Below, in pieces: positions 1 to 15,946 of a stretch of 64,000 nt of DNA (position 1 is its first letter; each line of letters begins with the position of its first letter). The notes beneath the pieces were generated by a model. That model was not told the origin of the DNA. It did no database searches and was given only the letters and a program-made list of their open reading frames with translations. Both the position numbers and the translations under genes were made by a program. Source of the stretch: Rhodomicrobium sp. R_RK_3 (GTDB taxonomy: Bacteria > Pseudomonadota > Alphaproteobacteria > Rhizobiales > Rhodomicrobiaceae); contig NZ_MWLK01000029.1 of assembly GCF_002198715.1 (NCBI RefSeq), positions 1-64,000 on the forward strand. Reading direction: 5' to 3'.

Positions 1-1
1 G

Positions 2-295
2 GTCTACGAGGCCGAGAAACAGGCGCAGATGCCGGGCGCAGGGCAGGCCGAAAGGGCCACGGTGGAAGAAGCCGTAAGGCGCGTGCGGGACGCGATGCAA
101 AGCGAGGATTCCGCCCGCATCCTGCAGGCTGTCGAAGCCTTAAGCGCGGCGGTCGCCGCGCTCAGCGCCGCCTCCATGCAGAATGCAGCTTCTGGCCAGT
201 CCGCCAATGGCGCCTCCGGCGACCAGCAGAGTCGCGAGCAGGAGGAGAACGTGGTCGATGCGGAATTCAGCGACGTGGATGAGGGCCGGCCATGA
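2..295 (+). CDS. dnaK: Molecular chaperone DnaK (Hsp70), C-terminal part only
   Basis: The open frame enters from the left edge and gives about 97 residues of the C-terminal helical lid and tail of an Hsp70. What is visible is a lid-like helix rich in Ala, Glu and Arg, a Gln/Ser/Gly-rich linker, and the typical end ENVVDAEFSDVDEG, close to the EEVD-like tail of bacterial DnaK. The ATPase and substrate domains lie outside the window. The stop overlaps the grpE start (ATGA at 292-295), so the two are translationally coupled. With the Hsp20, CbpA and ClpB genes nearby, this is probably an extra, island-borne DnaK rather than the housekeeping copy, but that is inference. Confidence 0.85.
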   Translation, partial: VYEAEKQAQMPGAGQAERATVEEAVRRVRDAMQSEDSARILQAVEALSAAVAALSAASMQNAASGQSANGASGDQQSREQEENVVDAEFSDVDEGRP

Positions 296-891
296 AAAAC
301 CGCCTCAAAACCGAGATGAATGGCCTGCGGACGGGCGAGGAGCCGCAATCCACGGCAGACGGGCCCGATGACCGCTCCATCCCGCCCGAGGCGGCCGATG
401 CGGGCGAGGCGAGCCCACCCGACGCCGCGCCGGAGGCCGAAGAGCAGCCCGATGTCGGGGATCTTGAGGATCGCCTCATGCGCGCCCTCGCGGAGCAGGA
501 AAACATTCGCGCGCGCGGCCGGCGAGAGATGGAACGCGCCGTCCAGTTCGCCGGCTCGCAACTGAGCGCGGATCTGCTGGACACCGCCGACAATCTCCAG
601 CGCGCCATCGGCAGCATCCCTGAATCGGCATTGGCCGATACCACGATCCGACAGCTTTTCGAAGGACTTCTGGCCACCGAACGGGCCCTCCTTGCGGCAT
701 TCGCAAGGCATGGCATCGTGTCAATAGACGCTTTAGGGAAGCCTTACGATCCGGCGCTCCATGAGGCGGTGCAAATCGTTCCCGACGAAGGCCAGGGGCC
801 CGGGGTGGTTTCCGCCGTCTTGAAACCGGGATACATGCATCATGACAGGCTGCTCCGGCCGGCCGCCGTCCATGTGACGACGGGCGTTTGA
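292..891 (+). CDS. grpE: Nucleotide exchange factor GrpE
   Basis: 199 residues, the usual GrpE length. An acidic, Pro/Ala-rich N-terminus (to about residue 60) precedes a long helix. The C-terminal beta domain holds the family signature around residues 150-190 (YDPALHEAV, followed by VLKPGYMHHDRLLRPAAVHV). GrpE opens the nucleotide pocket of DnaK and acts as a dimer in the cytoplasm. The start overlaps the dnaK stop by ATGA. The standard alphaproteobacterial grpE is usually apart from dnaK, so a dnaK-grpE couple here fits a second, stress-dedicated chaperone set. The next gene is convergent. Confidence 0.93.
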   Translation: MKNRLKTEMNGLRTGEEPQSTADGPDDRSIPPEAADAGEASPPDAAPEAEEQPDVGDLEDRLMRALAEQENIRARGRREMERAVQFAGSQLSADLLDTADNLQRAIGSIPESALADTTIRQLFEGLLATERALLAAFARHGIVSIDALGKPYDPALHEAVQIVPDEGQGPGVVSAVLKPGYMHHDRLLRPAAVHVTTGV

Positions 892-978
892 CGGCGCGGG
901 AAGCCCCTGTGACCGCCGCAATTGCCTGAGCCCTTCTCCGCCCGGGTACCCTTCCTTTTTCAGCGCCTCCGAAGCGTC

Positions 979-2678
979 CTATATGCCGACAACGGCTTCC
1001 AGCTTCGGGTTGAGCTCGGCGCGCAACCTGCGAATGACGTCCGCAGCCTCGTCCTGGGTGAACCCGGCCAGCAGCAGCGTCTGATCCGCGAGCGCCAGAC
1101 CTGCGGCAAGATCCTCCTGGAACACAGCCGTCGCGCCGGCCTTTGCCAGCTCCTCCGTGCCACGCGCGTCATCCGCGCTGACAAGGATCGCGGCTGCGGG
1201 GTTTTGCTGCCGGATAGAGGCGAGGAGCCCGCCGACATGCGGGCGGCGGTCGAAGGTCACGACGGCCAACCTCGCTCGCTCGATGCTCGCGGCACGAAGG
1301 ATTTCCGGGCGGCTGGCATCCCCGAACAAGACGCAATATCCGGCGTCCTTGGCCTCGGCAAAGCGCCGCCCATTATTTTCGATACAGAGATAGGGGAGGT
1401 TGGCGGCATCGGCGGCCAGCACCACGAGACGGCCGACCCGCCCGTAACCACAGATCACCACATGATCTTTCAGCGTCGGCGGAGGTTCGGCGCGGGTGGC
1501 TTCGCCGGGTCGCAGCACCCAGCTTGGCAGCATCTGCAACAGGTGCGTCTTGTTTCGGATCAGGACCGGCGCCAGAGCCATGCTGATGATGAGGGCCAAC
1601 AGCGCAGGCTGCCCGATCTGCCGGTCGATCAGCCCCGACAATGTTGCCGTGCTGAGCAGCAGGAGCCCGAACTCGCCGCCATGCGCGAGCACGATCGCGA
1701 CCCGCAGGCTGATCTCCCGCGACCATCCCATCATGCGCCCGACGAGCATCGTGATGGCCGCTTTGCCGAGCGTGAACACCAGGAGCCAGGCGAACACCGC
1801 GAGGGGGTGCTCGATCAGCACGGAGGGGTTCACCTGCATACCGATGGTGATGAAGAACAGTCCCAGCAGCACATCGCGCAGCGAGCGCAGCTCGGCCTCG
1901 ACCTGATGGCGGAAGTCGCTTTCGCCGATCGCCATTCCGGCGAGGAACGCTCCGATGGGAGCGGACAGGCCGGCGAGGCTTGCGGCGGCGGCGGTGCCGA
2001 GGGCGATGAGGAGGACACAGAGCAGGAACAGCTCCTCCGAGCCCACGCGCGAGATGCGTGCGAGGATGATGCGGAAGGCTGGCCGGCCGATGAAGGAGAT
2101 GCCGGCGAGGACATGGCCGCTATGATGACCCCGCGCAGGATCTCCGCGCCGGGGTCGCCGGCGGACTGACTGGTGCCGAGGAGCACCAGGAAGGCGATTG
2201 CGGCCAGGTCCTGGAACAACAGGACGCTGATCGCCCGCCGCCCATGCGGCGAGGCGAGGTCGCCCTGGTCGGCGAGCTGCTTGGCGCTCAATGCCGTCGA
2301 AGACATCGCGACCGCGCCGGCGAGGATCAGCGCGCCCTGCCAGCTCATGCCGAACGCCATGCCGAAGGCGCCGACGACAACGGTCGTGATGCCGACCTGA
2401 AGTCCGCCGCCGCCGAGAACATCGCGGAGCGCGTCCTTCACCGCCGAGAATGAAATATCGAGGCCCGTCATCAGCATGAGCAGGACGATCCCCAGTTCGG
2501 CCAGGAACAGGATCTCCCCGTCGGCCGAGAGCAGCCCCAGGCCGTAAGGCCCGATGAGAATGCCCGCGACGATGTAGCCGATCGCCCCCGGCAAGCGCAG
2601 TGCGCTGACGAGCCCGACGAGGCCGGTCGCGGCAGCGAGCACGAGGACGCTTTGCGTGAGATGCTCGCCGACCATCAT
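979..2678 (-). pseudogene. kefB: KefB/KefC-type monovalent cation:proton antiporter, interrupted by one frameshift
   Basis: Two overlapping frames together make one antiporter. The N-terminal frame (from ATG 2678) gives the Na+/H+-exchanger membrane half up to ILRGVIIAAM near 2115. The downstream frame then resumes with LAGISFIGRPAFRIILARIS, further membrane helices, and a TrkA-N domain with the NAD-binding motif GYGRVG at about residue 410. Adding one base near 2110-2125 restores a continuous protein of about 566 residues, normal for KefB/KefC. A single deletion (or sequencing error) is the simplest explanation. The start overlaps the stop of the upstream small gene (TGATG), so it belongs to the cbpA operon. 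KefB homologues are a regular part of transmissible heat-resistance loci. Confidence 0.85.
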
Positions 2679-2869
2679 CAGCCTCCCTGCTTTCGCAGCC
2701 GCCAGCGTGTCTCTTCGTTCTTATGCACGCCGTCGGCCACCACCTCGCCAGGAGGCGGCGCCACCGGAGGCCGAGCCAGGATTCCCGTCCAGCCCGGCGG
2801 ATCGCTGGCGGGAAACGACTCGTTGCTCGCGCGTTCGACGCAATCGTCCTTGTCTTCATCTTCGGGCAT
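2678..2869 (-). CDS. Small acidic protein with an [12 protein letters not shown] motif
   Basis: 63 residues if started at ATG 2869, which has a good Shine-Dalgarno (AGGGAG, six bases before the start). A GTG at 2908 would give 76 residues and overlap the cbpA stop. The N-terminus is strongly acidic (PEDEDKDD). The centre has [16 protein letters not shown], a motif that I recall from many small uncharacterised proteobacterial proteins. No signal peptide or membrane segment is seen. It sits between cbpA and kefB and overlaps the kefB start, so it is surely co-transcribed. Function unknown; an accessory role to the antiporter or chaperone is only a guess from position. Confidence 0.75.
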
Positions 2870-2904
2870 GGTCGCTCCCTGTTCCTGTGCCGGCGCTATC
2901 CGGA

Positions 2905-3852
2905 TCACCCGGTCATTGTTCGCCAGGGATGATGGGACTTCCCCGCGGGCCAGGCGGCGACGAAGGCCTCGAGATCGGGATCAGGTCTTTCCGGGAGCAT
3001 GATCCGCAGCTTCACATATTCGTCGCCGCGGCTGCCGTCAGCGCGGCGTACGCCCTTGCCTTTGAGACGCAGGGTCGATCCGGTATTCGACCATTTCGGC
3101 ACCCGCACAGTCGCCGAGCCGGTCGGCGTCGGCACCTTGATGCGCCCGCCGAGCACGGCCTCGGACAGCGAGATTGCCACCTCGACATGAATATTCTCGC
3201 CGCGCCGGGTGAGAGAGGGATGCGGCCGGACTTCGATCTCGATCAGCATATCGCCACGGCGCCCGTCCGGACCTGGGTCGCCCCTGCCGCGCAGGCGCAG
3301 GATCTGGCCGTCGCGCGTGCCGGGCGGGATGTTGACCTCGATCGTATCGCCACCCGGCAGAGACAGGCGCTGCGCCGCCCCGTTCACGGCGTCGAGAAAA
3401 TCGACATCGAGGCGGTAGCGGACATCCCGGCCGCGGGACGGGAAAGGCGCGCTGCCGGTGCGTCCGAAGAAATCCGAGAAAAAGTCTTCGGCGTCGAAAT
3501 TGGCAAATCCGGAGCCTGATCCGTCGTCGGCAAAACCTCGATTGTGGCCAGCAAAGCCGTTGGCATTTCGCCTCGCCCCGGCCCCGGCACGCTGATGGCG
3601 CTGGCGCGGCCGCTCGGCGCCGGATGCGTCGATCTCGCCCCTGTCGAAGCGGGCCCGCCGCTCTTCGTCGCTCAGGAGCTGGTAGGCCGACGAGACATCC
3701 TTGAAGCGCTGCTCGGCCGCCGCATCGCCTGGGTTGACGTCCGGGTGCACCTCCTTGGCGAGGCGGCGATACGCCTTGCGCAGGTCCTCGGCCGAGGCAC
3801 CGCGCTGCACGCCTAGCGTCCTATAGGGGTCCGCGCCGCTCACCTCGGTCAT
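2905..3852 (-). CDS. cbpA: CbpA-type DnaJ co-chaperone (class B J-protein)
   Basis: 315 residues from ATG 3852, chosen because AAGGAG lies seven bases upstream; a longer frame to 3906 lacks such a site. The N-terminal J domain (residues 5-70) has YRTLGV and the HPD motif that stimulates Hsp70 ATPase. A Gly/Phe-rich linker follows (to about 140, with FFSDFFGR), then two C-terminal beta domains. There is no Cys-rich zinc finger, which makes it CbpA-like rather than DnaJ proper. It begins a minus-strand operon with the small acidic gene and kefB, and is divergent from the hsp20 genes across a 158-bp spacer holding the 3919 palindrome. Likely partner: the DnaK/GrpE at the left edge. Confidence 0.92.
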
Positions 3853-3918
3853 CGCTCCTTGAAACTGCTGCCCGTTGACTGTCCCACACAGCATGACGGC
3901 GCGCATCCTCAGTGGCGC

Positions 3919-3930
3919 TGACGCGCGTCA
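3919..3930. promoter_or_regulatory. Palindrome TGAC-N4-GTCA between cbpA and hsp20 operons
   Basis: The core TGACGCGCGTCA extends to a perfect 14-bp palindrome (3918-3931). It lies 67-78 bp before the cbpA ATG and 81-92 bp before the first hsp20 ATG, so one site could serve both divergent operons. The same TGAC-N4-GTCA pattern recurs in intergenic DNA at 9258, 10684 and 14205. The half-site spacing is that of CRP/FNR-family operators (for example TTGAT-N4-ATCAA). The binding protein is not in the window. Confidence 0.5.
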
Positions 3931-4010
3931 GTGGCCCTCGCCAGGTGTCCTGGCATGCTGCTGCAATCGGTGGCTTCCCAGTGAGGCCACCCCGCAACAA
4001 GGAGTGCAAC

Positions 4011-4457
4011 ATGCTGTCCGAATATGCAGCCCCCGCCGCCCGGTGGCCGGACCTGTTCCGCGATCTCAGGCGCAGACAGGACGACTTTGGCAGGCCTTTC
4101 GGGGGCTTGAGGCTCACCCAGGCGGTGGACTTCCCACCGGTCAACATCTGGACCTCTCCCGATGGAGCGCTGGTCACTGCGCAACTGCCGGGGGTGAGCA
4201 TGGATCAGATCGACGTCACTGTTCACAAGAACACTTGTTCGATCCGCGGCAGACGCCCGCTGGAAGTCGTCGAGGAGGGCACGGTGGTTCATCGCCAGGA
4301 GCGGCCGCATGGCGAGTTCGGGCGCGTGATCGTGCTGCCGTTCCGTGTTGATGCCGACAAGGTCTCGGCAAGGTTCGACCGTGGCGTGCTTCGGCTGGAG
4401 CTGCCGCGGCCCGACGAGGATCGGCCGCGCAAAGTCCGCATCGCCCACGACTCATAG
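4011..4457 (+). CDS. Small heat shock protein, Hsp20 family (first of three)
   Basis: 148 residues from ATG 4011, preceded by AAGGAG. The alpha-crystallin domain covers about residues 40-140: NIWTSPDGALVTAQLPG, the strand region HRQERPHGEFGRVIVLP, and the closing GVLRLELPRP that carries the IxI-like hydrophobic pattern. The family holds unfolding proteins in large oligomers, without ATP, for DnaK/ClpB to refold. First gene of a tight operon: the next start is 11 bp downstream. The N-terminal arm is short and Arg-rich (RDLRRRQDDFGR), unlike the two following paralogues. Confidence 0.93.
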   Translation: MLSEYAAPAARWPDLFRDLRRRQDDFGRPFGGLRLTQAVDFPPVNIWTSPDGALVTAQLPGVSMDQIDVTVHKNTCSIRGRRPLEVVEEGTVVHRQERPHGEFGRVIVLPFRVDADKVSARFDRGVLRLELPRPDEDRPRKVRIAHDS

Positions 4458-4468
4458 GAGGTCATCCG

Positions 4469-4903
4469 ATGACTGTTCAACAGCAGACAGCCTCCAGAAA
4501 CGGCGCGGCGGCCGATCAAGGCAGTGACGCGGCGAGTGGAAACGGGCGCAGCGTCGAGCAGACCGTCCCGATGCCCAGCTTCGCGCCTCCCTCGGACATT
4601 TACGAGACGAAGGAGGACGTACAGCTCTATCTCGACATGCCCGGCGCCGATCCCTCCTCGCTCGATGTCACCCTCGACCGGCGCATCCTGGCGGTATCGG
4701 CGCGGTGCCAGCCCTGGCGGCCGCAGGGATATACGCTCATCGCCGCCGAATATCAGGACGGGAACTATGAACGGTCCTTCGTTCTGTCCGATCAGCTCGA
4801 TGGCGAGAAGATCGAGGCAAACTTCAAGGATGGCGTGCTGTGCATCCGCGTGCCGAAAGCCCCGCCCTCGCAAGCCAAGAAGATCCCCGTCAATGCAGCT
4901 TAA
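4469..4903 (+). CDS. Small heat shock protein, Hsp20 family (second of three)
   Basis: 144 residues; the start at 4469 has AGGAGG seven bases upstream. A Gln/Gly/Ala-rich flexible N-terminus (about 35 residues) precedes the alpha-crystallin domain (SDIYETKEDVQLYLDMPG, then YQDGNYERSFVLSDQLD and GVLCIRVPKAP). The sequence is clearly diverged from its two neighbours, which suggests separate client or oligomer roles. ATP-independent holdase, cytoplasmic. The stop is ten bases before the third hsp20 start, so all three are one transcript. Confidence 0.93.
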   Translation: MTVQQQTASRNGAAADQGSDAASGNGRSVEQTVPMPSFAPPSDIYETKEDVQLYLDMPGADPSSLDVTLDRRILAVSARCQPWRPQGYTLIAAEYQDGNYERSFVLSDQLDGEKIEANFKDGVLCIRVPKAPPSQAKKIPVNAA

Positions 4904-4913: not shown

Positions 4914-5483
4914 ATGGCACAGACACAATCGCAGACGCCAGCCACCCAACAATCGCGCAACGGCGGCAGCAACGCGCCGGCGACGACCGCCGGACAGAGC
5001 GGCAGTGGCGGCCGCGGCATGCAGACCAGGAGCGGCGGCCGCGACCCGGTCACGATGCTCAGGTCCGACATCGACCGTGTATTGGACAGCTTCTGGCGCG
5101 GCTTCGACCTGCCCATGATGGGCCTGGTCAACTCCGCGCTGTTGAGCGGCGACACGATGCCCATCAACATGCGCGAGACCGACAAAGAGGTCGAAATCAC
5201 CGCCGAGCTGCCCGGCTTCGAGCCGGACGAAATCGACGTCATGGTAACGGATGGGGCCGTAACCATCCGCGCCGAAGGTGAAACCTCTCAGGATGTGAGC
5301 GACAACGGCTACATTATCCATGAGCGGCGAGTGGCGCGCTTCGAGCGCACGCTACCCCTTCCCGACAATGTCGACCCCGAAGCCATACAGGCAAGCTATC
5401 GCAACGGGGTGCTGACTCTCAGCATTCCCAAGACGAGCGATAGCGACAACGGATCGCGGCGCATTGCCGTGCAGTCGAGCTGA
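4914..5483 (+). CDS. Small heat shock protein, Hsp20 family (third of three)
   Basis: 189 residues from ATG 4914, with AAGGAG upstream; a longer open frame to 4524 only overlaps the preceding gene. A long low-complexity N-terminus rich in Gln, Ser and Gly (to about residue 43) is followed by a helical segment (RSDIDRVLDSFWRGFD) and a canonical alpha-crystallin domain: INMRETDKEVEITAELPGFE, the strand-exchange region ERRVARFERTLPLP, and GVLTLSIPK. This is the most typical bacterial Hsp20 of the trio. A hairpin terminator follows within 20 bp, closing the operon. Confidence 0.94.
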   Translation: MAQTQSQTPATQQSRNGGSNAPATTAGQSGSGGRGMQTRSGGRDPVTMLRSDIDRVLDSFWRGFDLPMMGLVNSALLSGDTMPINMRETDKEVEITAELPGFEPDEIDVMVTDGAVTIRAEGETSQDVSDNGYIIHERRVARFERTLPLPDNVDPEAIQASYRNGVLTLSIPKTSDSDNGSRRIAVQSS

Positions 5484-5550: not shown

Positions 5551-6204
5551 ATGCGATCCGACGAGGAAATCAGGCGCGATGTCGAGGATGAGTTGAAGTG
5601 GACCCCGACCGTCGGCGACGCCGATATCGCCGTCTCGGTGAAGAACGGCATTGTGATGCTGACCGGCTTCGTGCCGGACTTTACCAGCCGCTTCGAGGCC
5701 GAGGCCGCCGCAAAGCGGGTCGCCGGGGTGATCGGCATCGCCAACGACATCGAGGTCCGACTGCCTGCCATCGACGAGCGCCCTGATCCGGCCATAGCCC
5801 GCGACGCGGTCGCGGCGCTGGCGTTGCAACTGCCTTCCTCCTGGGAACAGATCAAAGTGGTCGTGAAGAGCGGGGTGGTCACGCTCGACGGCGAGGTGGA
5901 GTGGGATTTCCAGCGCAAGATCGCTGAAGAGACGGTCGGACGCATTCGCGGGGTGCGCGAAATCCGCAATCTGATCCGGGTCAATCCACGCGTCAGCCCC
6001 GAAGCGATCAAGCAGAAAATCAAGCAAGCCTTCCTGCGCAGCGCCGAACTCGACGCCGAAAATATCAGGGTCGAAGTGGAAGGCCATCGCGTCGTTCTCG
6101 AAGGCACGGTGCGGTCCTGGGCAGAGCGCGAGGCGGCCGAGCGAACCGCATGGGCCGGTCCCGGCATCGCCCTTGTCGAGAACCACATCGCCGTCAAGGT
6201 CTGA
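5551..6204 (+). CDS. Protein with three BON domains
   Basis: 217 residues from ATG 5551. Three BON repeats are seen at about residues 1-70, 75-145 and 148-217, each with the pattern of a helix, then VxxGxVxLxGxV, then a helix ending near a Val-rich strand (IVMLTGFVPD; VVTLDGEVEW; VVLEGTVRSW). No signal peptide is present, so a cytoplasmic site is likely, unlike OsmY. BON domains are thought to bind membranes or stabilise envelope and stress complexes. It is downstream of the hsp20 terminator and 56 bp before the peroxiredoxin gene, on the same strand. Confidence 0.85.
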   Translation: MRSDEEIRRDVEDELKWTPTVGDADIAVSVKNGIVMLTGFVPDFTSRFEAEAAAKRVAGVIGIANDIEVRLPAIDERPDPAIARDAVAALALQLPSSWEQIKVVVKSGVVTLDGEVEWDFQRKIAEETVGRIRGVREIRNLIRVNPRVSPEAIKQKIKQAFLRSAELDAENIRVEVEGHRVVLEGTVRSWAEREAAERTAWAGPGIALVENHIAVKV

Positions 6205-6260: not shown

Positions 6261-6767
6261 ATGAAACATAACACATCGTCTGCGCCGAACTCGCCTCTGC
6301 CGGAGGGACAGCCGGCGCCTGACTTTACCCTGCATACGACGCCCGACCAGACGGTCGCGTTGCGGGACTTCCGCGGCCAGCCGGTCATTCTCGCATTCTA
6401 TCCGGCCGATTGGAGCCCGGTCTGCGGCGACCAGATGGTGCTCTATAACGAGATCTTGCCGGAGTTTCGCAGACACAATGCGGCGCTGATCGGCATCTCG
6501 GTCGATGGCGTCTGGTGCCACCTGGCCTTCGCCCGCGACCGCAAGCTGCAATTCCCACTGGTGTCCGATTTCGAGCCCAAGGGCCGGATCGCCAAGACCT
6601 ACGGCGTCTACCGCCATGGCGATGGCGTTTGCGAGCGCGCCCTGTTCGTCCTCAATTCCGAGGGGGTCATTCACTGGCGGCACGTCTCCCCGATCGGGGT
6701 CAATCCCGGTGCGGACGGCATCCTCACCGCGCTCGAAAGTCTTGAGATGGAAGGAGCTACCTCATGA
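6261..6767 (+). CDS. Peroxiredoxin of the AhpC/TSA (Bcp/AhpE-like) type
   Basis: 168 residues from ATG 6261. Thioredoxin fold with the peroxidatic cysteine in PADWSPVCGDQM at about residue 55; the surrounding Pro and Ser occupy the places of the P-xxx-T/S-xx-C motif. Further Cys are at WCHLAFA and GVCERALFV, the latter a possible resolving Cys. Peroxiredoxins reduce hydroperoxides using thioredoxin-like donors. The stop overlaps the start of the DsbA-like gene (ATGA at 6764), so that protein is a likely redox partner. The same pairing is common in rhizobial stress clusters, but the electron donor is inferred. Confidence 0.88.
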   Translation: MKHNTSSAPNSPLPEGQPAPDFTLHTTPDQTVALRDFRGQPVILAFYPADWSPVCGDQMVLYNEILPEFRRHNAALIGISVDGVWCHLAFARDRKLQFPLVSDFEPKGRIAKTYGVYRHGDGVCERALFVLNSEGVIHWRHVSPIGVNPGADGILTALESLEMEGATS

Positions 6768-7315
6768 AGAATGCACCTACGGTACTGACGCTGCCCGTCG
6801 GGCCGCGTGATCATATTATCGGGAACCCGGATCCGCTGGTCACCCTGGTCGAGTATGGGGACTATCAATGCCCCTTCTGCGGCCAGGCCCACGTCGTGGT
6901 CTCCGAGCTGATCCGGCAGTTCGGCCCCGAACTGCGCTATGTCTTTCGGCATTTCCCGATCACGACCATCCATCCCCATGCCGGGCTTGCTGCCGAGGCC
7001 GCCGAAGCCGCCGGCGCGCAAGGCAAGTTCTGGGAGATGCACAATATGCTCTACACCCATCAAGAAGCGCTCGACCCGCCAAGCCTCACGCGCTATGCGG
7101 GCCTGCTCGGGCTGGATCTGCCCCGGTTCACGAGTGAGCTGGCTCAGCACGTGCATGCTCCGCGCGTGCGAGAGGATTTTATCAGCGGTGTTCGCAGCGG
7201 CGTGAACGGCACGCCGTGTTTCTTCATCAACGGTGTTCGCCACGACGGGGCCTGGGATTTCGAGACTCTGGCTGTTGCGATCGCGGCGGCTAGCGCGCCG
7301 GTTCCCGCCGCCTGA
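6764..7315 (+). CDS. DsbA-family thioredoxin-fold protein
   Basis: 183 residues. The active site CPFC is at about residue 35 in VEYGDYQCPFCGQAH, followed by the helical insertion and the cis-Pro loop GVNGTPCFFINGV, where a further Cys follows the conserved cis-proline. No signal peptide is seen, so it probably works in the cytoplasm, unlike DsbA itself. Translationally coupled to the peroxiredoxin gene. The 3' end overlaps the convergent psiE gene by 26 bp. Confidence 0.88.
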   Translation: MKNAPTVLTLPVGPRDHIIGNPDPLVTLVEYGDYQCPFCGQAHVVVSELIRQFGPELRYVFRHFPITTIHPHAGLAAEAAEAAGAQGKFWEMHNMLYTHQEALDPPSLTRYAGLLGLDLPRFTSELAQHVHAPRVREDFISGVRSGVNGTPCFFINGVRHDGAWDFETLAVAIAAASAPVPAA

Positions 7316-7781
7316 CGGCGGCGACCCGGCGATCCTGGTCACGCACCAGCCAGTAGACGACGCCAAGCGACAGCATGGCCGCGCTCAGGGCAAAGATCTT
7401 GCCCGCCTCCGCGCTGCTCAAGTCCAGAATGATCAGTTTCCTGAGGATCGCCAGCATGGCGAGCAGCACCACCGTACGCACCTGCACAATGCTGTCCCGG
7501 CGTTCGGCGATCACCAGGAGCGAACGCTTGAACTCCAGGCCGATGATCACGGTGAAGATCATCCCGAACAGCGCCTGGAACACGCTGTTGTCGCCGGGAT
7601 CGCGCGGCCCACTGAAGATCAGGACAAAGAGGATATTCAGCGCCAAATTCCAGACGGCGGCCACCACGATGATCGCGATGAGGGCGGTCAAGATCAGGAC
7701 GACCGCCTGCTCGAACTTCTCGTAGAAGGTCAGCGCCTGCCACTGCTCCTTGGCGGCCCTGATTTCGCTTCGAACCGTCAT
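7290..7781 (-). CDS. PsiE-family phosphate-starvation/stress membrane protein
   Basis: 163 residues from ATG 7781, with GGAGGGG seven bases upstream. About four membrane helices follow a short amphipathic N-terminus (WQALTFYEKFEQ). The family signature DNSVFQALFGMIFTVIIGLEF and IVQVRTVVLLAMLAILRKLIILD is clear. PsiE proteins are induced by phosphate starvation in E. coli and are part of transmissible heat-resistance loci; their biochemical activity is unknown. Convergent with the DsbA-like gene, sharing 26 bp. The PRC-barrel gene lies upstream on the same strand, 219 bp away. Confidence 0.88.
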   Translation of the reverse strand: MTVRSEIRAAKEQWQALTFYEKFEQAVVLILTALIAIIVVAAVWNLALNILFVLIFSGPRDPGDNSVFQALFGMIFTVIIGLEFKRSLLVIAERRDSIVQVRTVVLLAMLAILRKLIILDLSSAEAGKIFALSAAMLSLGVVYWLVRDQDRRVAAVRRREPAR

Positions 7782-8517: not shown

Positions 8518-9171
8518 TCATGCGCTCTGTGCGGCGGCCGCCACGTCTTGCGGGGTCTCATGGCGCCGCGAGCGCAGGCGGAAGGCCAGGATGAGCATGG
8601 CGACGTTAAAGGCCGCGACATAGATGCCCAGCCACCAGGTGAGCACGATGGCTCCGACGGGCGGTGCCGCCATGAGAAGAATGCCGAACACGACGGAAAG
8701 GAAGCCGCTAAGCCCCATCCATCCCCGGCCATAGCGCCGGTTCAGCCGCAATGCCGTCGCAATCATCAGCGCGCCCGAAACGATCGACCAGACAGCGATG
8801 ATCAGTACGAAGGCGAGGATCGTGATGCCGGGCCACAAGAGAGCGAGAGCGGCGACGCCGATCCGCAACAACCCTTCGACGACGAGCAGCGCCCAGCGCT
8901 GTCCTTGTCTGGCCTCCCGCACCGCCGAGATGATAGCCAGCACACCATCGACCAGCATGTACGCGGCAAACAGCATCACGAGCGCGAGCAGCGTGATCTG
9001 CGGCATGACGATAGCGATGACGCCGAAGAGGATGCCAAGCACACCGCGTAGGGCGATGAGCCACCAATTCTGCGCCAGCACCGTGCTTTTGACATCGTTT
9101 AGCCAGTCGTCCGAGACGCTGGCTTGGCGTTTGCGGCGAACATTCACTTCCGCCGTTCCGGTGTCACTCAT
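8518..9171 (-). CDS. hdeD: HdeD-family membrane protein (DUF308)
   Basis: 217 residues from ATG 9171, with AAGGAG eight bases upstream. Six membrane helices in three pairs match the DUF308 repeat pattern: WWLIALRGVLGILFGVIAIVMP, then WALLVVEGLLRIGVAALALLWPG, then GWMGLSGFLSVVFGILLMAAPP. The soluble N-terminus (about 40 residues) is Arg/Lys-rich. E. coli HdeD supports acid resistance at high cell density; homologues are fixed members of transmissible heat-resistance loci. The molecular activity is not known. A TGAC-N4-GTCA palindrome is 87-98 bp upstream. Confidence 0.9.
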   Translation of the reverse strand: MSDTGTAEVNVRRKRQASVSDDWLNDVKSTVLAQNWWLIALRGVLGILFGVIAIVMPQITLLALVMLFAAYMLVDGVLAIISAVREARQGQRWALLVVEGLLRIGVAALALLWPGITILAFVLIIAVWSIVSGALMIATALRLNRRYGRGWMGLSGFLSVVFGILLMAAPPVGAIVLTWWLGIYVAAFNVAMLILAFRLRSRRHETPQDVAAAAQSA

Positions 9172-9492
9172 GATCAAACTCCTTGAGGGCATCGCAGGGC
9201 CAGCATGACGGAGCGATCCCTCAAATGCATAAGAACCTGGAGCGGTGCGGAGCACGATGACGGCTGTCAGCTTGGCCGCTCCGCGCATCAACCGAGGCGG
9301 GGTTTCGGTCTCCCAGGTGAAGCGGCAGGGCGGGGTTCGAGCTTGATGGGGGCCGGCCCCTGCTCGGCGGCATGGTGGGTCGGCGCGGCCATTTGTGCGA
9401 GGAGCGCACAAGCGCCGCCGGGCTCAGCGGAACGTCACGAGGGGCGCCGCTTGCATCCGGGATGAGGAAGGCGGGTTCGCGATGAGCGGACT
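9172..9492. other. Intergenic region between hdeD and the OYE gene
   Basis: 321 bp without a convincing gene. It holds the hdeD Shine-Dalgarno, the palindrome at 9258-9269, and the 3' flank of the OYE reductase. Short open frames here lack ribosome sites and have no recognisable sequence. Confidence 0.6.
9258..9269. promoter_or_regulatory. Palindrome TGAC-N4-GTCA upstream of hdeD
   Basis: TGACGGCTGTCA, 87-98 bp before the hdeD ATG. Read on the minus strand, GCTGACAGCCGTCATCG matches the site at 14205 (reverse complement GCTGACAGGCGTCATCG) at 16 of 17 positions, well beyond the palindromic core. Confidence 0.5.
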
Positions 9493-10614
9493 TCAGCCCC
9501 AGGACGCATCTTCATGATCGTGGCCGGCGCGCTGCCGAAGCGTGTAAAGGATCGGATAGTCGGTATAGCCCTCTTCGGCGCCGCCATACATGGTCGACGG
9601 ATCGACTTCGAGGAGCGGCGCGTCAAGCAGGAACCGTACGACCAAATCCGGATTGGCAATGAAGGGTTTGCCAAACGCCACCATATCGACGCGTCCCTCC
9701 GCGATCGCCGCGTTGGCCCGCTCCTTGTCGAAATGGTAGTTTGCGATGTACAGGCCGCCAAATGCTCGTCTGAGCGTTGCATAATCAAACTCCGCCACCG
9801 GCTTGCCCGTGGTGTCTCCCTCGATGACATGCATATAGACGAGGCCGCGCCGGCCCAGCTCGCCGGCCACGTAATTGAACAAAGCTTGCGGATTGCTGTC
9901 GCGGATGTCGTTGGCGGTCACCTGGGGAGAGATGCGCACGCCCGTGCGCTCCGGCTGCGCGACGCGCGCCACGGCGTCCACGATCTCCAGGAGGAAGCGG
10001 GCGCGGTTCTCGATACTTCCGCCATAGTCGTCGGTGCGCTCGTTGGTGCCATCGCGCAGGAACTGGTCGATCAGATAGCCGTTGGCGCCGTGGATCTCGA
10101 CGCCGTCGAAGTCCGCTGCAAGTGCATTCCGTGCCGCCGTCGCGTATGCCTCAACGATGCTTGGGATTTCATCCCGGCTGAGCGCCCGAGGCGTGGGATG
10201 CGGCTGAAATCCGTCCTTCGTAAAGGCCTGCCCTTCGGCGCGGATCGCGGAGGGCGCAACAGGGGCCACCCCGCCGGGTTGAAAGCTCGAATGGGAGATC
10301 CGGCCCACGTGCCAGAGCTGCAGGAAAATGCGGCCGCCCGCAACGTGCACGGCCCGCGTCACCATCCGCCATGCCTCGATCTGCTCGGCCGAGTGGATGC
10401 CCGGCGTCGAAATATAGCCTTGCCCCTCTGGCACGATCTGCGTCGCTTCGGCAATAATCAAACCCGCGCTTGCCCGCTGGGCATAGTAAAGCGCGTTCAG
10501 CTTGCTGGGGACATTGCTTTCTTGCGCCCGGCTGCGCGTGAGCGGCGCCATGACAGCGCGGTTCTGACGTTCGTAGGGACCGATGACGATCGGCGTGAAG
10601 AGGTCGACGCTCAT
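9493..10614 (-). CDS. Old Yellow Enzyme family alkene reductase (NemA-like)
   Basis: 373 residues, full length for the family. FMN-dependent TIM barrel: N-terminal LFTPIVIGPYERQNRAVMAPLTRSRA, substrate/FMN motif HGANGYLIDQFLRDGTNERTDDYGG around residue 180, and FGKPFIANPDLVVRF near the phosphate site. The catalytic pair is His-Gly-Ala-Asn. Such enzymes use NAD(P)H to reduce electrophilic alkenes, nitro-esters and N-ethylmaleimide, so a role in reactive-electrophile stress fits this island. Close in sequence type to NemA and XenA/B; the exact substrate cannot be told. A TGAC-N4-GTCA palindrome is 70-81 bp upstream. Confidence 0.92.
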   Translation of the reverse strand: MSVDLFTPIVIGPYERQNRAVMAPLTRSRAQESNVPSKLNALYYAQRASAGLIIAEATQIVPEGQGYISTPGIHSAEQIEAWRMVTRAVHVAGGRIFLQLWHVGRISHSSFQPGGVAPVAPSAIRAEGQAFTKDGFQPHPTPRALSRDEIPSIVEAYATAARNALAADFDGVEIHGANGYLIDQFLRDGTNERTDDYGGSIENRARFLLEIVDAVARVAQPERTGVRISPQVTANDIRDSNPQALFNYVAGELGRRGLVYMHVIEGDTTGKPVAEFDYATLRRAFGGLYIANYHFDKERANAAIAEGRVDMVAFGKPFIANPDLVVRFLLDAPLLEVDPSTMYGGAEEGYTDYPILYTLRQRAGHDHEDASWG

Positions 10615-10684: not shown

Positions 10685-10695
10685 GACGGGCGTCA
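10684..10695. promoter_or_regulatory. Palindrome TGAC-N4-GTCA upstream of the OYE gene
   Basis: TGACGGGCGTCA, 70-81 bp before the OYE ATG and overlapping the stop codon of the upstream gene. On the minus strand it reads TTGACGCCCGTCAC, so one half-site is the extended TTGAC form seen in FNR-type operators. Confidence 0.45.
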
Positions 10696-11406
10696 ATTTT
10701 TGCTTAAGCTGGCCGCCTTCAAATGCCGCTCGGCGATCTCGCGAAGGGCGGCTTCGGTCAGCGCCCGGAGCTCGGTGTCGACGAACGCGGTGATCCGGCC
10801 CAGCAATGAGGGCTGATGCCGCTCGATGAAGGCGCGCAGCACACTCATGGCACTGCTACTGCCTTTGGCGTCACCGACGACAAGCACCTCGGGCTCATCC
10901 TGCAGCGCCTTGATGATGGATTTATAATAGCCGGGGTCTTCCGGCGCGCGCTGGCCCCGATAGTCGTCGGAGTGCTTCAGGCGCAGATTGTCCCGGTGAT
11001 GTTGCGGATCATGCGGATGGAAGCGTTTCACGCGGGCAAGCGGCCCGCCGGGGTGCTCCTGTCTCCAAAGCGCTGCCTCGTGGTGGTCGATGGTCAGGAC
11101 AACGCCGGGCAGCGGCTCGGGGGGCGGTGCCGGAGCTGGCTCGGGGTGGTCGGGGGTTATGCCGGCGGCCCGGAAGAATTTGCGGACCTTGACCACCTCG
11201 TCCTTGTCCAGCGTCTGCTCGCGCGGCAGCAGGAATTTGAGCTGCCGATCCCCGATCGAGAACACGATGTGGCCGTTCTTCAGCTCCTCGACCTCGCCAT
11301 AATGGCGCACAAGCGCGAACACCTCCCGCCATTCCAGATTGGCCGGCTCCGGATGGCCGAAAAGCTCGTCCAAGGTCTTGCGCAATTTCCCGCTGAGATG
11401 CGGCAT
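10693..11406 (-). CDS. Two-domain protein: HicA/dsRBD-like N-terminus and baeRF (eRF1-like) C-terminus
   Basis: 237 residues. Residues 1-85 (LSGKLRKTLDELFGHPEPANLEW, DRQLKFLLPREQTLDKDEVVKVRKFFRAAGI) resemble small HicA-like RNA-binding folds. A Pro-rich linker (residues 88-100) leads to a C-terminal region with ltIDHHEAALWR, a His-rich patch (RFHPHDPQHHRDN) and VLVVGDAKGSSSAM, the pattern of bacterial-archaeal eRF1-like proteins that are proposed to act on ribosomes. I infer a role at stalled ribosomes or with RNA during stress. There is no catalytic GGQ-type motif that I can see. It lies between the OYE gene and clpB on the same strand, 88 bp after clpB. Domain assignment is by pattern only. 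Confidence 0.6.
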   Translation of the reverse strand: MPHLSGKLRKTLDELFGHPEPANLEWREVFALVRHYGEVEELKNGHIVFSIGDRQLKFLLPREQTLDKDEVVKVRKFFRAAGITPDHPEPAPAPPPEPLPGVVLTIDHHEAALWRQEHPGGPLARVKRFHPHDPQHHRDNLRLKHSDDYRGQRAPEDPGYYKSIIKALQDEPEVLVVGDAKGSSSAMSVLRAFIERHQPSLLGRITAFVDTELRALTEAALREIAERHLKAASLSKN

Positions 11407-11494
11407 CTGACGGCTCCTGCTTTAGAGGATCGCTCACGGCGACATGGAATGACGAGCGTTGGACTAAGTGCCGCCGTGGCACTGACGGCGTCGC

Positions 11495-14080
11495 CTACGC
11501 TGCTTGGGAGAGTTGCTGCCCGTTGATGGCGAGGCGGCCGTTCACGACCGACACCCTAATCGTGTCGCCGTCTTTGGCCGTGCCGGAGAGCAGCATCATC
11601 GCCAGCGGGTTCTGCAACTCGCGCTGAATCACGCGCTTGAGCGGCCGGGCTCCATAGACCGGATCATAGCCCGCAGCCGCGAGCCATGCCTTGGCCGCCT
11701 CGTCGATTTCGAGAGTCAGCTTGCGCTCGAGCAGCAGCTTCTGCAGGTTCCTCAGTTGGATGTCGACAATGCGCGTCATCTCCTTCCGCCCGAGCCGGTT
11801 GAAGAGGATGATCTCGTCCAGCCGGTTGAGGAACTCCGGACGGAAGGCGCGCTGCACCACTTCCATGACCTGCCCGCGGGCGGCCTCGGCGGGCTGATCT
11901 TCGAGCAGCGCCGCGAGATATTCGGCGCCCAGGTTCGACGTCAGCACGATGATGGTGTTGCGGAAATCGACGGTGCGGCCCTGTCCGTCGGTCAGCCTGC
12001 CATCGTCGAGGACCTGGAGGAGGATGTTGAAGACGTCGCTATGCGCCTTCTCCACCTCGTCGAACAGGATGACCTGGTAGGGACGCCGGCGCACGGCTTC
12101 GGTCAGCGATCCGCCTTCCTCATAGCCGACATAGCCCGGCGGCGCGCCGATCAGCCGGGCAACGGAGTGCTTCTCCATATACTCGGACATGTCGATGCGC
12201 TGCATGGCGCGCTCGTCGTCGAACAGGAACTCGGCGAGCGCCTTGCACAGTTCGGTCTTGCCGACACCGGTCGGCCCCAGGAAGAGGAAGGAGCCGATCG
12301 GCCGGTTCGGGTCGTGCAAACCGGCGCGGGCACGGCGGACGGCGTCGGAGACGGCGCGGATGGCGGCCTCCTGCCCGACGACCCGCTCGGTCAGCTTTTC
12401 CTCCATGTGGATGAGCTTCTCGCGCTCCCCTTCGAGCATCCGGTCGACGGGGATGCCGGTCCAGCGCGACACGACCTCCGCGATCTCGACGTCGGTCACC
12501 TCCGGCTTGAGGAGCTGCCCCTTGATGCTGGAGGCTTCCTCCAGCTTGCGCTCCAACTCCGGGATGATGGCGTACCGCAGCTCCCCTGCGCGGGTCAGAT
12601 CGCCGCGGAGCTGGGCGGCCTCCAGCTCGTTCCTCGCGCGGTCGAGCTGCTCCTGGAGCTGCTTGACGGCGGCGAGATTTTCCTTTTCCGCCCGCCACTG
12701 AGCGGTGAGCTCGGCCGCCTGGCGTTCCAGCTCGGCGATCTCCTGTTCCACCTTCTCGAGCCGTTCCCTCGAGGCCTGGTCCTTCTCCTTCTTCAGTGCC
12801 TCGCGCTCGATCTTGAGCTGGATGATCCGGCGGTCCAGCTCGTCGAGTTTTTCCGGCTTGGATTCCGCCTCGATGTGCAATCGGCTCGCCGCCTCGTCGA
12901 TCAGGTCGATTGCCTTGTCGGGAAGGAAGCGGTCGGCGATGTAGCGGTGCGAGAGCGTCGCCGACGCGATGATGGCGCTGTCCGCAATGCGCACGCCGTG
13001 GTGGATCTCGTATTTCTCCTTGAGCCCCCGAAGGATGGAGATGGTCTCCTCCACCGACGGCTCGCCGACGAAGACCGGCTGGAACCGCCTGGCAAGCGCG
13101 GCATCCTTTTCGATGTTCTTGCGATACTCCTCGAGCGTGGTGGCGCCGATGCAATGCAGCTCTCCGCGCGCCAGCGCCGGCTTGAGCATGTTCGACGCGT
13201 CCATCGCCCCTTCCGTCTTGCCGGCGCCGACGAGCGTATGCAGCTCGTCGATGAAGAGGATGACGTCGCCGGCTGAGGTCACCTCCTGCAGCACGGCTTT
13301 GAGCCGCTCCTCGAACTCGCCCCGATATTTGGCGCCGGCGAGCAGCAGGCCGAGATCGAGCGAAAGCAGCCGCCGGTCCCTTAGCGTGTCGGGGATGTCG
13401 CCCTTGACGATGCGCTGGGCCAGCCCTTCGACGATGGCGGTCTTGCCGACGCCGGCTTCGCCGATCAGCACGGGGTTGTTCTTCGTCCGGCGCGCCAGCA
13501 CCTGGATCGTGCGCCGGATTTCCTCGTCGCGCCCGATCACCGGATCGAGCTTATTCCGGCGCGCCTCCTCGGTGAGGTCGCGCGTGTATTTGCGCAGGGC
13601 GTCATAGGCCTGCTCGGCGGAGGCGCTATCCGCGGTGCGCCCCTTGCGCAGCTCGGCGATTGCGGCATTGAGGGCCTGCGGCGTGACGCCCGCCCGCTTG
13701 AGAATATCGGCGATCGCGGAGCCGGCGGCCATGGCCAGCGCCAGCAGCGCATATTCGCTCGTGACGAAGCTGTCACCCGCCTTGAGGGCCATCTGCTCGG
13801 CTTGATCGAACAGCCGCGCGGCTTCCGGGCTCATATAGATCTGACCGCTGCCGCCCTCCACTTTCGGCAGTTTTGCCAGCTCGCGCTCGATCTCCTGCTT
13901 CACCTGTTCGGGGCGGCCGCCGGCCGCGGCGATGAGATTGGCGGCAAGGCCATTCGGGTCGTCGAGCAGCGCCTTGGCAACATGGAGCGGCGTGAACTGC
14001 TGGTGTGAACTGCGTAGGGCGAGGCTCTCTGCGGCCTGCACAATGGCTTTGAGGCTGTCGGTGTATTTCTCAATCTGCAT
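11495..14080 (-). CDS. clpB: ATP-dependent disaggregase ClpB
   Basis: 861 residues, the normal ClpB length. The double N-domain (1-145) is followed by NBD1 with Walker A GEAGVGKT near residue 205 and Walker [10 protein letters not shown], a coiled-coil M domain (about 400-520), and NBD2 with GPTGVGKT near residue 605 and [11 protein letters not shown]. The pore motif [10 protein letters not shown] is present in NBD1 and GYVGYEEGG in NBD2. No ClpP-binding loop or ClpK/ClpG-type N-terminal extension is seen. ClpB threads aggregated proteins through its ring together with DnaK. In tLST islands the disaggregase is ClpK/ClpG; here a plain ClpB fills that place. Divergent from the trxR-like gene. 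Confidence 0.96.
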
Positions 14081-14204
14081 GGCGTTCCCTCATCGCTGTC
14101 GGAGCATTGGGCGTGCCTTCGGTCGAAGGCTGCCGATCCACAGCATCGTCCGAGAGCGCTGACCGCGGCCCTTTTATTCCGGGGAAACGCCGAGGAGGGC
14201 GCGA

Positions 14205-14216
14205 TGACGCCTGTCA
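14205..14216. promoter_or_regulatory. Palindrome TGAC-N4-GTCA between clpB and the trxR-like gene
   Basis: TGACGCCTGTCA, 54-65 bp upstream of the flavoprotein ATG and 125-136 bp upstream of the clpB ATG. Flanks are shared with the hdeD site (9258). A start at 14204 for the flavoprotein would place this site inside the gene, another reason to prefer 14270. Confidence 0.5.
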
Positions 14217-14269
14217 GCGACGAATGCGAATCTTTGCTGCACGCAGAAAACCAACCGAGGAGCCCATCC

Positions 14270-15946
14270 ATGTCGACGACCGATAGCCGCCACGATGAAA
14301 TGTTCCCTAAGCTCGACCTCGGTGAGATCGACCGGCTCCGCCGGTTCGGCACCGTTCGGCGCTACCGGCCCGGCGAGGCGCTCTTCATTACGGGAGAGGT
14401 CGCTCCAGGCATGGCCGTACTGATCCGCGGCTCGGTGCGGGTCGTACGGCGCGATCCGCTCGGGCATAGCGCTCCCATCGTCGAGCAGGGGCAGGGCGAG
14501 TTCGTCGCCGAGGTCGGGCAATTGTCGGGCCAGCCGGCCCTGATCGACGTCGACGCCATCGAGGAGGTGGAAGCCCTTGTAATCCCGCCTAAGAACCTGC
14601 AGGCGCTGATGATCGAGGAGGCCGAACTCGGAGAGCGGATCATACGGGCCTTGATTTTGCGGCGCGTCGCGCTGATCGAGGCTGGAGCCGGCGGCCCCGT
14701 GCTGATCGGCCCTGAATCCAGTCCGGACGTCATCCGGCTGCAGGGGTTTCTCGCCCGCAATGGCTATCCGCATCAACTGCTCGATCCGGCGCAGGACCGC
14801 GATGCGGCGGAACTGGTGAGACGTTATTCCCCTGATTCTTCGGATCTGCCGCTTGCGGTGTGCCCCAAGGGAACGATTTTGAAAAATCCAAGTGAGGCGG
14901 AGCTGGCGAAGGCCCTCGGAATGGTGCCGATCGAGGAATGCGATCGCACCTACGACGTCGCGGTCGTCGGCGCCGGACCCGCCGGTCTCTCGGCCGCCGT
15001 CTACGCTGCCTCCGAGGGGCTCTCGGTGATCGTGCTCGATGCGCGGGCCTTTGGCGGCCAGGCGGGAGCGAGCACGCGGATCGAGAACTTTCTGGGCTTT
15101 CCGGCCGGAATTTCCGGACAGGCACTCATGGCGCGCGCTCATGTTCAGGCGCAGAAATTCGGTGCCGTCATGGCGATCCCTAGCGAAGTCACTCGCCTCG
15201 ATCTGGCCGAAACACCGAAAACGCTGCACTTAGGGGACGACCGCTCTGTCGAGGCATCGATGGTGGTGATCGCGACCGGCGCACGCTACCGGCGTCTCGA
15301 CGTGCCGAATTTCGACGACTTTGAGGGGCGTGGCATCTGGTACTGGACGTCCCCCGTCGAAGCTCGCCTGTGCCGCAACGAGGAGATCGTACTCGTGGGC
15401 GGCGGTAATTCCGCGGGCCAGGCCGCCGTTTTCCTGCGGAGCTTCGCCAAGAAAATTTGGATGCTGGTGCGCGGCCCTAGCCTTGCCGAAAGCATGTCGC
15501 GCTACCTCATCGACCGGATCCGGGCGACCGAGAATATCGAGGTCCTTACCAACACGGAAATCGTAGGGCTTTACGGGAGCGCGGAGAGACAATTGGAGCG
15601 CGTGCGCTGGCGCAACAACGTCACCGGCGAGGAAACGGAGAAACCGATCCGCCATGTGTTCCTGTTCATCGGCGCCGAACCGGCGACGGCCTGGCTGAAG
15701 GACAGCCGCATAGCGCTCGATTCAAGAAACTTCATTCTGACGGGCTCGGACGTCTGGCCATCAAAGGACGGTTCGTCCGAGGGGAGCGATGGCCGCCCCC
15801 TGCCGCTGGAGACGAGTGTGAAACGCGTCTTCGCCATCGGCGACGTACGCTCTGGATCGGTAAAGCGGGTCGGCGCCGCCATGGGTGAGGGCGCCACTGG
15901 CGTAGCCGAACTGCATGCCAGTATGGCCAAAGGCACCCACCGATAA
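14270..15946 (+). CDS. cNMP-binding domain fused to a thioredoxin-reductase-like flavoprotein
   Basis: 558 residues from ATG 14270 (GAGGAG upstream). Residues 10-130 form a cyclic-nucleotide-binding-like beta-roll (RRYRPGEALFITGEVAPGMAV, EFVAEVGQLSGQPALIDVDA). Residues 135-225 are a linker with a thioredoxin-like look, and 225-558 a thioredoxin-reductase fold: FAD motif VVGAGPAGLSAAVYAASEG, NADPH motif VGGGNSAGQAA, and C-terminal AIGDVRSGSVKRVGAA. The redox CxxC of true thioredoxin reductase is missing: the region reads GIWYWTSPVEARLC. It therefore probably passes electrons to another acceptor. Possible regulation by a small molecule through the cNMP domain. Divergent from clpB. Confidence 0.88.
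   Translation: MSTTDSRHDEMFPKLDLGEIDRLRRFGTVRRYRPGEALFITGEVAPGMAVLIRGSVRVVRRDPLGHSAPIVEQGQGEFVAEVGQLSGQPALIDVDAIEEVEALVIPPKNLQALMIEEAELGERIIRALILRRVALIEAGAGGPVLIGPESSPDVIRLQGFLARNGYPHQLLDPAQDRDAAELVRRYSPDSSDLPLAVCPKGTILKNPSEAELAKALGMVPIEECDRTYDVAVVGAGPAGLSAAVYAASEGLSVIVLDARAFGGQAGASTRIENFLGFPAGISGQALMARAHVQAQKFGAVMAIPSEVTRLDLAETPKTLHLGDDRSVEASMVVIATGARYRRLDVPNFDDFEGRGIWYWTSPVEARLCRNEEIVLVGGGNSAGQAAVFLRSFAKKIWMLVRGPSLAESMSRYLIDRIRATENIEVLTNTEIVGLYGSAERQLERVRWRNNVTGEETEKPIRHVFLFIGAEPATAWLKDSRIALDSRNFILTGSDVWPSKDGSSEGSDGRPLPLETSVKRVFAIGDVRSGSVKRVGAAMGEGATGVAELHASMAKGTHR

Follow-up and report, generated by a model that had tools for sequence, protein, structure and literature searches.

Stress-tolerance islands are usually interpreted as heat or chlorine devices. 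The transmissible locus for stress tolerance (tLST) is defined by dna-hsp20-clpG, and alphaproteobacterial clusters centred on clpG are reported there as well (PMC8290217); another report counts ClpK, Hsp20s, PscA/B, KefB and DegP among its core genes (PMC8407380). The low-oxygen regulons of rhizobia offer a second comparison: an Hsp20 of Rhizobium leguminosarum with a TTGA-N6-TCAA box is induced about 50-fold under microaerobic conditions in an FnrN-dependent manner (PMC11784457), and in Bradyrhizobium diazoefficiens the Hsp20 blr7961 and the Usp proteins blr2761 and bll6069 are induced by microoxia and listed as direct FixK2 targets, while ClpB blr1404 is induced by microoxia but is not a FixK2 target (PMC6515984). 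We analysed a 64,000-nucleotide (nt) window of Rhodomicrobium sp. R_RK_3 (bases 1-64000 of contig C22, NZ_MWLK01000029.1, which has 111,395 bases; the genome comprises 5.79 Mb in 39 contigs). Its first 15.9 kb, beginning at contig base 1, carry an island of chaperone and redox genes, which appears, with a probability of about 0.6, to belong to an alphaproteobacterial family of proteostasis-redox islands, each forming one FNR/FixK-type regulon.

The extra proteostasis-redox island is real. Pfam and NCBIfam profile searches agree with the gene set named in a sequence-only reading of this DNA, i.e., GrpE, CbpA, three Hsp20, KefB, PsiE, HdeD, ClpB, BON and PRC proteins, a peroxiredoxin (Prx)/DsbA pair, an Old Yellow Enzyme-family (OYE) reductase and a cyclic nucleotide-binding flavoprotein (Table 1). 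The grouping exceeds chance, since several further genomes have most of these families, for the most part similarly ordered. The disaggregase is a standard ClpB by its TIGR03346 score (1379.5 bits, above the cut-off of 1232.1) and its two Walker A motifs, at 207 and 602. The OYE protein scores 381.9 bits against the N-ethylmaleimide reductase model, whose cut-off is 403. The frame of kefB is split: its N half lies in the frame at 1830-2678 and its C half in that at 979-2046, with the break, judged by eye, at about 2.1 kb; the split is a draft error or decay, and the homologue in Sinorhizobium fredii is, unlike it, a single frame of 535 codons.

Contig C22 starts inside dnaK, of which only the last 97 codons lie in the window. 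Two contigs, C19 and C34, both terminate just inside a dnaK start, and the end of C29, read in the opposite direction, carries a dnaK start too. Because the ends of C34 and C29 overlap by 94 bases that include bases upstream of dnaK, and the 96 bases common to C19 and C29 start only at the ATG, C34 is assigned to C29, which by elimination would leave C19 as the neighbour of C22. Window positions 1-182 match the C29 dnaK without difference and diverge thereafter; the body of the island dnaK was probably collapsed into C29 during assembly. By inference, the island extends left of the window onto C19, where usp, a Crp/Fnr gene and a gene for a FixJ-like regulator are located, and C34 holds a sister set of PRC, Crp/Fnr (67% identical), FixJ-like and dnaK genes. 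The two dnaK copies are identical wherever both are visible (96 bases at the start and 182 near the end), which suffices to break the assembly; a recent duplication, or gene conversion between these two loci that both have FixJ-like and Crp genes, would account for the identity.

A palindrome, CTGA-N6-TCAG, is common to both dnaK upstream regions and was the origin of the site pattern. As CTGAY-N4-RTCAG it occurs 38 times in the genome, against three occurrences of the reversed control pattern. All four copies near the island and sister loci are intergenic; the other 34 comprise 26 coding and eight intergenic or gene-edge copies. From this genome alone the pattern was relaxed to NTGAY-N4-RTCAN, and only afterwards was it applied to other loci. 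When co-directional neighbours are grouped into operons by our own judgement, every island group has a site (Table 1); one intergenic and four coding sites lie in the 48 kb that follow on the right. The FNR consensus TTGAY-N4-RTCAA, allowed one mismatch, was found in the window at chance level only, as were the families returned by a repeat search of the island.

Ten loci outside this genome were compared. In 268 kb, 26% of it intergenic, they have 85 sites between genes and 14 in coding sequence (p = 1.8e-35), counted on stretches that were cut around gene matches after the sites had been seen. Left uncut, the same loci span 387 kb (23% intergenic) and yield 87 and 22 (p = 7.6e-36), two more intergenic and eight more coding sites, and the enrichment stands. 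Seventy of the 85 intergenic sites precede a start by 400 nt or less, at a median distance of 99 nt. Units were also delimited mechanically, with a start wherever genes diverge or the gap exceeds 80 nt and a site counted within 300 nt: 69 of 158 unit starts in the islands have a site versus 16 of 350 for the 18 loci that served as controls, among which are the five Prx-only genomes and the two plasmid-borne tLST (odds ratio 16, p = 6e-26), and 74 of 211 in the uncut islands (odds ratio 11, p = 5e-21). The C34 sister set gives three of five. Scrambled palindromes are rare. Conservation extends over about 20 bp, with a consensus near TTGACGNNCGTCAA, and because the information is confined to this length between flat flanks, the site is not a copied repeat. 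The site between cbpA and hsp20a stands at the same position in S. fredii and in two sampled genomes, G350 and G365. A Crp/Fnr gene is found inside or beside eight of the ten outside loci, as it is on C19 beside this island. The use of NTGAY-N4-RTCAN in promoters of this island family is new here; the top-ranked matches from searches of one open-access library contained no description of the family or of its common site. In Bradyrhizobium jicamae, a 60 kb stretch has 30 intergenic versus three coding sites of the FNR/FixK type, suggestive of a very large stress regulon.

Co-occurrence of the families, which the sequence-only reading had proposed as a check, was confirmed in alphaproteobacteria. 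The islands most like this one are those of S. fredii NGR234, B. jicamae, a Pseudolabrys metagenome-assembled genome (MAG), Azospirillum, Phenylobacterium, Sphingomonas and the genomes G350, G365, G145 and G172; in a tblastn search against plasmids, PsiE, HdeD, KefB and ClpB matches were co-located on alphaproteobacterial plasmids. The island on S. fredii pNGR234b has the order PRC-DsbA-Prx-HdeD-BON-kefB-BON-hsp20c-b-a/cbpA, grpE-dnaK, crp, psiE, usp, near that of the window. It shares all of these genes with the island described here, as well as sites at the corresponding promoters, but has an unbroken kefB and additional BON copies, and its block is without ClpB, OYE and the cyclic nucleotide (cNMP)-binding flavoprotein named above. 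G350 and G365 possess the full core in the gene order shared by the window and S. fredii; the order is less fully shared by G145, G172, B. jicamae and Pseudolabrys. G145 gave no hsp20 or crp matches, its stretch ending with the contig, and G172 no hsp20, BON, kefB or PRC matches. Two of the best 80 of 573 confirmed Prx loci are islands, namely those of the Pseudolabrys MAG and B. jicamae. Both resemble the present island in fixJ-crp-Prx-DsbA, BON, hsp20, dnaK, grpE, cbpA and sites, and differ from it in having Lon and CbpM and no match to its 237-amino-acid (237-aa) protein. The Pseudolabrys ClpB is 79% identical to the window ClpB over its full length, and the B. jicamae stretch includes a flavoprotein with 77% identity as well as OYE. 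Looser versions with ClpB are present on plasmids of Azospirillum, Phenylobacterium and Sphingomonas. Thus, leaving aside the gene for the 237-aa protein, each right-arm gene has a counterpart in some other island; all together were seen only here. In a sample of 397 genomes of the order, Prx was detected at E 1e-45 in ten, this one included; the nine others are G350, G365, G145, G172 and five that have the Prx-DsbA pair without chaperones. Not all chaperone clusters belong to this family, as a Methylorubrum plasmid with ClpB, DnaK, GrpE, CbpA, ClpK-like and YfdX genes has no intergenic FNR-type sites. Near the Azospirillum ClpB island we noted a family 2A encapsulin with cysteine desulfurase cargo (L094:3895-6643).

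The island does not follow the housekeeping genes. That its dnaK, grpE and clpB might be the only genomic copies, with vertical phylogeny, had been named beforehand as the outcome that would refute the sequence-only reading. Instead, the genome has a second ClpB on C30 (69% identical to that of the island), a second GrpE and a housekeeping-type dnaK beside dnaJ on C35, and the island ClpB and DnaK fall outside the housekeeping groups. Among 81 genomes of a close sample (this one and 80 relatives), only this one has two ClpB at E 1e-200; neither a second ClpB nor the island Prx was found in the seven other sampled genomes of the family, two of which are only 82% and 88% complete. In the DnaK tree, where the C29 copy stands in for the island copy, the C35 copy groups with the family's housekeeping DnaKs (100/98), the C29 copy lies outside these with island DnaKs of Azospirillum, Phenylobacterium, Pseudolabrys and Bradyrhizobium (96/91), and the Methylorubrum plasmid DnaK is among the housekeeping rows. 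In the ClpB tree (the G054 row and two ClpK rows left out), island ClpB pairs with that of the Pseudolabrys island (100/100), followed by Azospirillum (93/91). Five island rows are split with moderate support (90/88) from 24 others, which include the Methylorubrum plasmid and B. jicamae ClpBs. The approximately unbiased (AU) test, with groups chosen after the first ClpB tree had been seen, rejects two groupings of the island ClpB: a pair with the housekeeping ClpB of this genome (p = 2.5e-8), and a clade with five family rows (p = 4.7e-5).

The locus had been described as a possible alphaproteobacterial version of tLST. Of this, the extra proteostasis island with redox genes and alphaproteobacterial kin held up; the tLST identity did not, and we regard it as unlikely. 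The two kinds do have much in common: plasmid tLST loci of Agrobacterium and Paracoccus share with the window the Hsp20 triplet in the order a-b-c, PsiE, HdeD and KefB, the disaggregase is the largest chaperone gene in both, and the KefB N half is even slightly nearer to tLST (45% versus 44% identity to the S. fredii island). In addition, the S. fredii island stretch continues, past a serine recombinase, with rhomboid, ClpP-like SDH protease and ClpK-like genes (L096:31429-42097), a tLST-like block whose ClpK-like gene is broken by an IS21-type element. In tLST, however, the disaggregase is a stand-alone ClpK/ClpG, whereas the window has ClpB with its DnaK-GrpE-CbpA partners. Island ClpB reaches only 796 and 790 bits against the ClpG and ClpK models, compared with 1588 and 1610 bits for the Agrobacterium and Paracoccus tLST proteins, for which ClpK is the best match; the ClpK cut-off of 1900 bits excludes these accepted proteins too. 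The other full-length Clp match of the genome is ClpA. PscA/PscB are YfdX-type periplasmic chaperones, and YfdX (PF10938) has a single match in the genome, which scores 21.1 bits and so stays under the cut-off of 26.6. FtsH, TrxC and DegP are absent among the identified genes of the window island; Prx-DsbA, BON, PRC, OYE, the cNMP-flavoprotein, the FNR-type sites and the Crp/Fnr and FixJ-like regulators are additions relative to tLST.

Sequence identities of the shared genes mostly favour the S. fredii island over the two tLST loci: Hsp20a 48% versus 38-40%, Hsp20b 55% versus 38-39%, Hsp20c 40% versus 33-34%, HdeD 44% versus 36-37% and the KefB C half 49% versus 44%, with PsiE almost tied (60% versus 54-59%). 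The tLST loci have one and zero intergenic FNR-type sites, and none of their 39 unit starts has one. By its disaggregase and gene content, then, the island is not classed as a tLST. The homologous Hsp20 triplet, PsiE, HdeD and KefB hint at module exchange between both island kinds, which do meet: in S. fredii the two are neighbours on pNGR234b. The plasmid tLST of Agrobacterium pusense and Paracoccus yeei encode a ClpK-like ATPase, FtsH, ClpP, a rhomboid protease and TrxC.

An ordinary heat-shock cluster, in which extra chaperones are under sigma-32 and the FNR-type sites are incidental, is an improbable alternative. Chaperones are classic heat-shock genes, and the Phenylobacterium island stretch carries its own sigma-32 gene. 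The very strong site enrichment in loci outside this genome speaks against it. Moreover, a sigma-32 scan of five promoter stretches, four from the island and the fifth from the sister set, gave no such site, though the scan is weak and detected just one housekeeping control out of two; no controlling inverted repeat of chaperone expression (CIRCE) occurred within three mismatches, and no ROSE-type RNA was found. Still less credible is a chance neighbourhood of separately gained stress genes with neither common control nor joint function. In its favour, S. fredii-type islands do not have the right arm (ClpB, the 237-aa protein, OYE and the flavoprotein) as a block, and the 237-aa protein is nearly confined to this genome. 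Against it, several genomes keep the core order, the B. jicamae stretch also has OYE and the flavoprotein, the Pseudolabrys island also has ClpB, and the core and right arm have the same kind of site.

We return to the island family under an FNR/FixK-type regulator. On the strength of the palindrome and the rhizobial Hsp20 and Usp precedents, we take the island most likely to be a repair set triggered by low oxygen or redox change, with control deduced by analogy. Rhizobial FixLJ-FixK/FnrN regulons resemble it in the TTGA-N6-TCAA-kind palindrome, in Crp/Fnr and FixJ-type regulators and in Hsp20 and Usp targets (PMC6515984, PMC11784457). They differ in that the sites here belong to a redox set and a second Hsp70/Hsp100 machine, FixL is unseen and the half-sites of this genome are mostly CTGA/ATGA instead of TTGA. 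In the proposed scheme, a fall of oxygen or a redox change would be the trigger; the FixJ-like response regulator, which may carry the signal, and the island Crp/Fnr protein would switch the units on together. This would supply a second disaggregation machine (three Hsp20 holdases, DnaK-CbpA-GrpE and ClpB), thiol-peroxide defence by the Prx-DsbA pair and an OYE reductase against electrophiles, and add the antiporter and membrane-stress proteins. Protein repair would in this way be tied to the oxygen/redox state and not only to heat and sigma-32. The sensing step, the stimulus, the site-binding protein and activation as opposed to repression are all predictions of this scheme.

Several points weigh against this assignment. 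The dnaK body is missing from the assembly and the C19-C22 join rests on elimination. The 26 of 38 genome-wide CTGAY-N4-RTCAG copies in coding sequence look chance-like, and under the mechanical rule sites stand at only five of nine unit starts in the window and one of two on C19. The hallmark of FNR is an N-terminal cysteine cluster; the island Crp has no such cluster, its cysteines being at 38, 134, 194 and 196, and sensing would therefore come from elsewhere, yet no FixL-like kinase was present among the genes classified beside the island. The recognition helix of the island Crp is ETVCR; ETVCR and ETVSR both occur, Phenylobacterium has ETLCR with TTGA sites, and a supposed covariation of the helix with the first site letter was discarded in view of counter-examples. 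The weakness of the sigma-32 scan, the siteless chaperone set of the Methylorubrum plasmid and the ClpK-like block adjoining the S. fredii island count on the same side.

For a wider proposal we would give even odds: that the family is widespread and horizontally spread, and that its second Hsp70-Hsp100 disaggregase and thiol-peroxide set, under an island-encoded FNR/FixK-type regulator, repair proteins in cells entering or leaving oxygen limitation, apart from the heat-shock system. An island family that resembles stress-tolerance islands but has low-oxygen-type control sites would mean that disaggregation and oxygen/redox state may be coupled, and that gene names alone are insufficient for annotating such loci as tLST. 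The coupling is simply testable in culturable hosts with kin islands, i.e., S. fredii NGR234, Bradyrhizobium and Azospirillum.

Among the redox genes, Prx residues C55 and C86 are invariant in an alignment of 15 sequences, and profile matches to solved structures include Rv2238c, known as AhpE. The DsbA-like protein has no evident signal peptide by eye. All of the best 80 Prx loci have a DsbA match, within 400 nt and on the same strand in 78, and it retains CxxC in 79. The adjacency spans Gemmatimonadetes, Verrucomicrobia, Acidobacteria and archaea, suggesting a cross-phylum thiol-peroxidase pair. A second pair in this genome (C4:38752-39237), 79% and 66% identical, stands without other island genes and, within 38 kb, without intergenic FNR-type sites. 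The flavoprotein had been called a thioredoxin reductase (TrxR), a name that survives as a fold label only. CxxC is absent from the window protein and from six of six readable homologues (one cut at 408 aa; a seventh row, in the wrong frame, was excluded), and at the position where E. coli TrxR carries CATC it reads YWTS; it is not a classical thioredoxin reductase. An electron chain from NADPH through this protein and DsbA to Prx was dropped for the same reason. The flavoprotein is close to Prx-DsbA in only two of the 80 loci, and its reading frame has a further ATG upstream at 14204.

The 237-aa protein, putatively baeRF-like, matches no Pfam or NCBIfam family, and its two weak relatives (25% and 32% identical), on Nostoc and Granulicella plasmids, have no Pfam baeRF match either. 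Nothing below E 0.49 was obtained against solved structures, and the single-sequence AlphaFold model (pLDDT 48.9) is too poor for fold comparison. No homologue was found at E 1e-15 in the 397 other genomes of a phylum sample (398 with this one), a first scan of genome contigs yielded no relative, and the order sample gave one weak partial match.

Table 1 Genes and FNR-type sites of the island, in the window and on contig C19
Feature	Position	Strand	Evidence or remark
dnaK, second copy, 3' end only	2..295	+	
grpE, second copy	292..891	+	PF01025, 130.9 bits; other genome copy at C19:54712
kefB-type K+/H+ antiporter, split over two frames	979..2678	-	PF00999, PF02254
cbpA-type DnaJ co-chaperone	2905..3852	-	PF00226, PF01556, NCBIfam
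hsp20a	4011..4457	+	PF00011
hsp20b	4469..4903	+	PF00011
hsp20c	5019..5483	+	PF00011 (5169-5474); start from gene caller
Protein of three BON domains	5551..6204	+	PF04972, 160 bits, 3 stretches
AhpE-like peroxiredoxin	6261..6767	+	PF00578
DsbA-like CPFC thiol protein	6764..7315	+	PF13462/PF01323
psiE	7290..7781	-	PF06146
PRC-barrel protein	8001..8357	-	PF05239
hdeD (DUF308)	8518..9171	-	PF03729
OYE-family reductase	9493..10614	-	PF00724
237-aa protein	10693..11406	-	no family match
clpB, second copy, standard ClpB	11495..14080	-	TIGR03346
cNMP-binding, TrxR-fold flavoprotein without CxxC	14270..15946	+	cNMP-binding and pyridine-nucleotide domains
usp	C19:167275-168102		
Crp/Fnr gene	C19:168483-169163		PF13545, PF00325
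FixJ-like response regulator	C19:169175-169786		
FNR-type palindrome CTGACGCGCGTCAG	3918..3931		divergent cbpA/hsp20a promoter, 66 and 80 nt to starts; groups cbpA-kefB and hsp20abc-BON-Prx-DsbA
FNR-type palindrome ATGACGGCTGTCAG	9257..9270		86 nt upstream of hdeD; group hdeD-PRC-psiE
FNR-type palindrome GTGACGGGCGTCAA	10683..10696		69 nt upstream of OYE; group OYE
FNR-type palindrome ATGACGCCTGTCAG	14204..14217		between clpB (124 nt) and flavoprotein (53 nt); groups clpB and flavoprotein
FNR-type site	C19:168167		65 nt to usp, 303 nt to crp; group usp
FNR-type site	C19:170596		group dnaK-grpE

Where the ends of dsbA and psiE face each other, an L31-leader-like Rfam hairpin (7295-7334; 31.9 bits, gathering threshold 35) is perhaps a terminator; the second sub-gathering Rfam match was sR30. 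No transposase or integrase was seen among the ten flanking and the right-hand genes classified, which are part of the flank. Right of the island follow an NMT1-type binding protein, AlgX, MBOAT and a large regulator, then P460, hydrolases, OsmC and MarR, all of which look unrelated to it. The adjacent AlgX-like and MBOAT genes (17724-20834) are perhaps an alginate-type O-acetylation pair.

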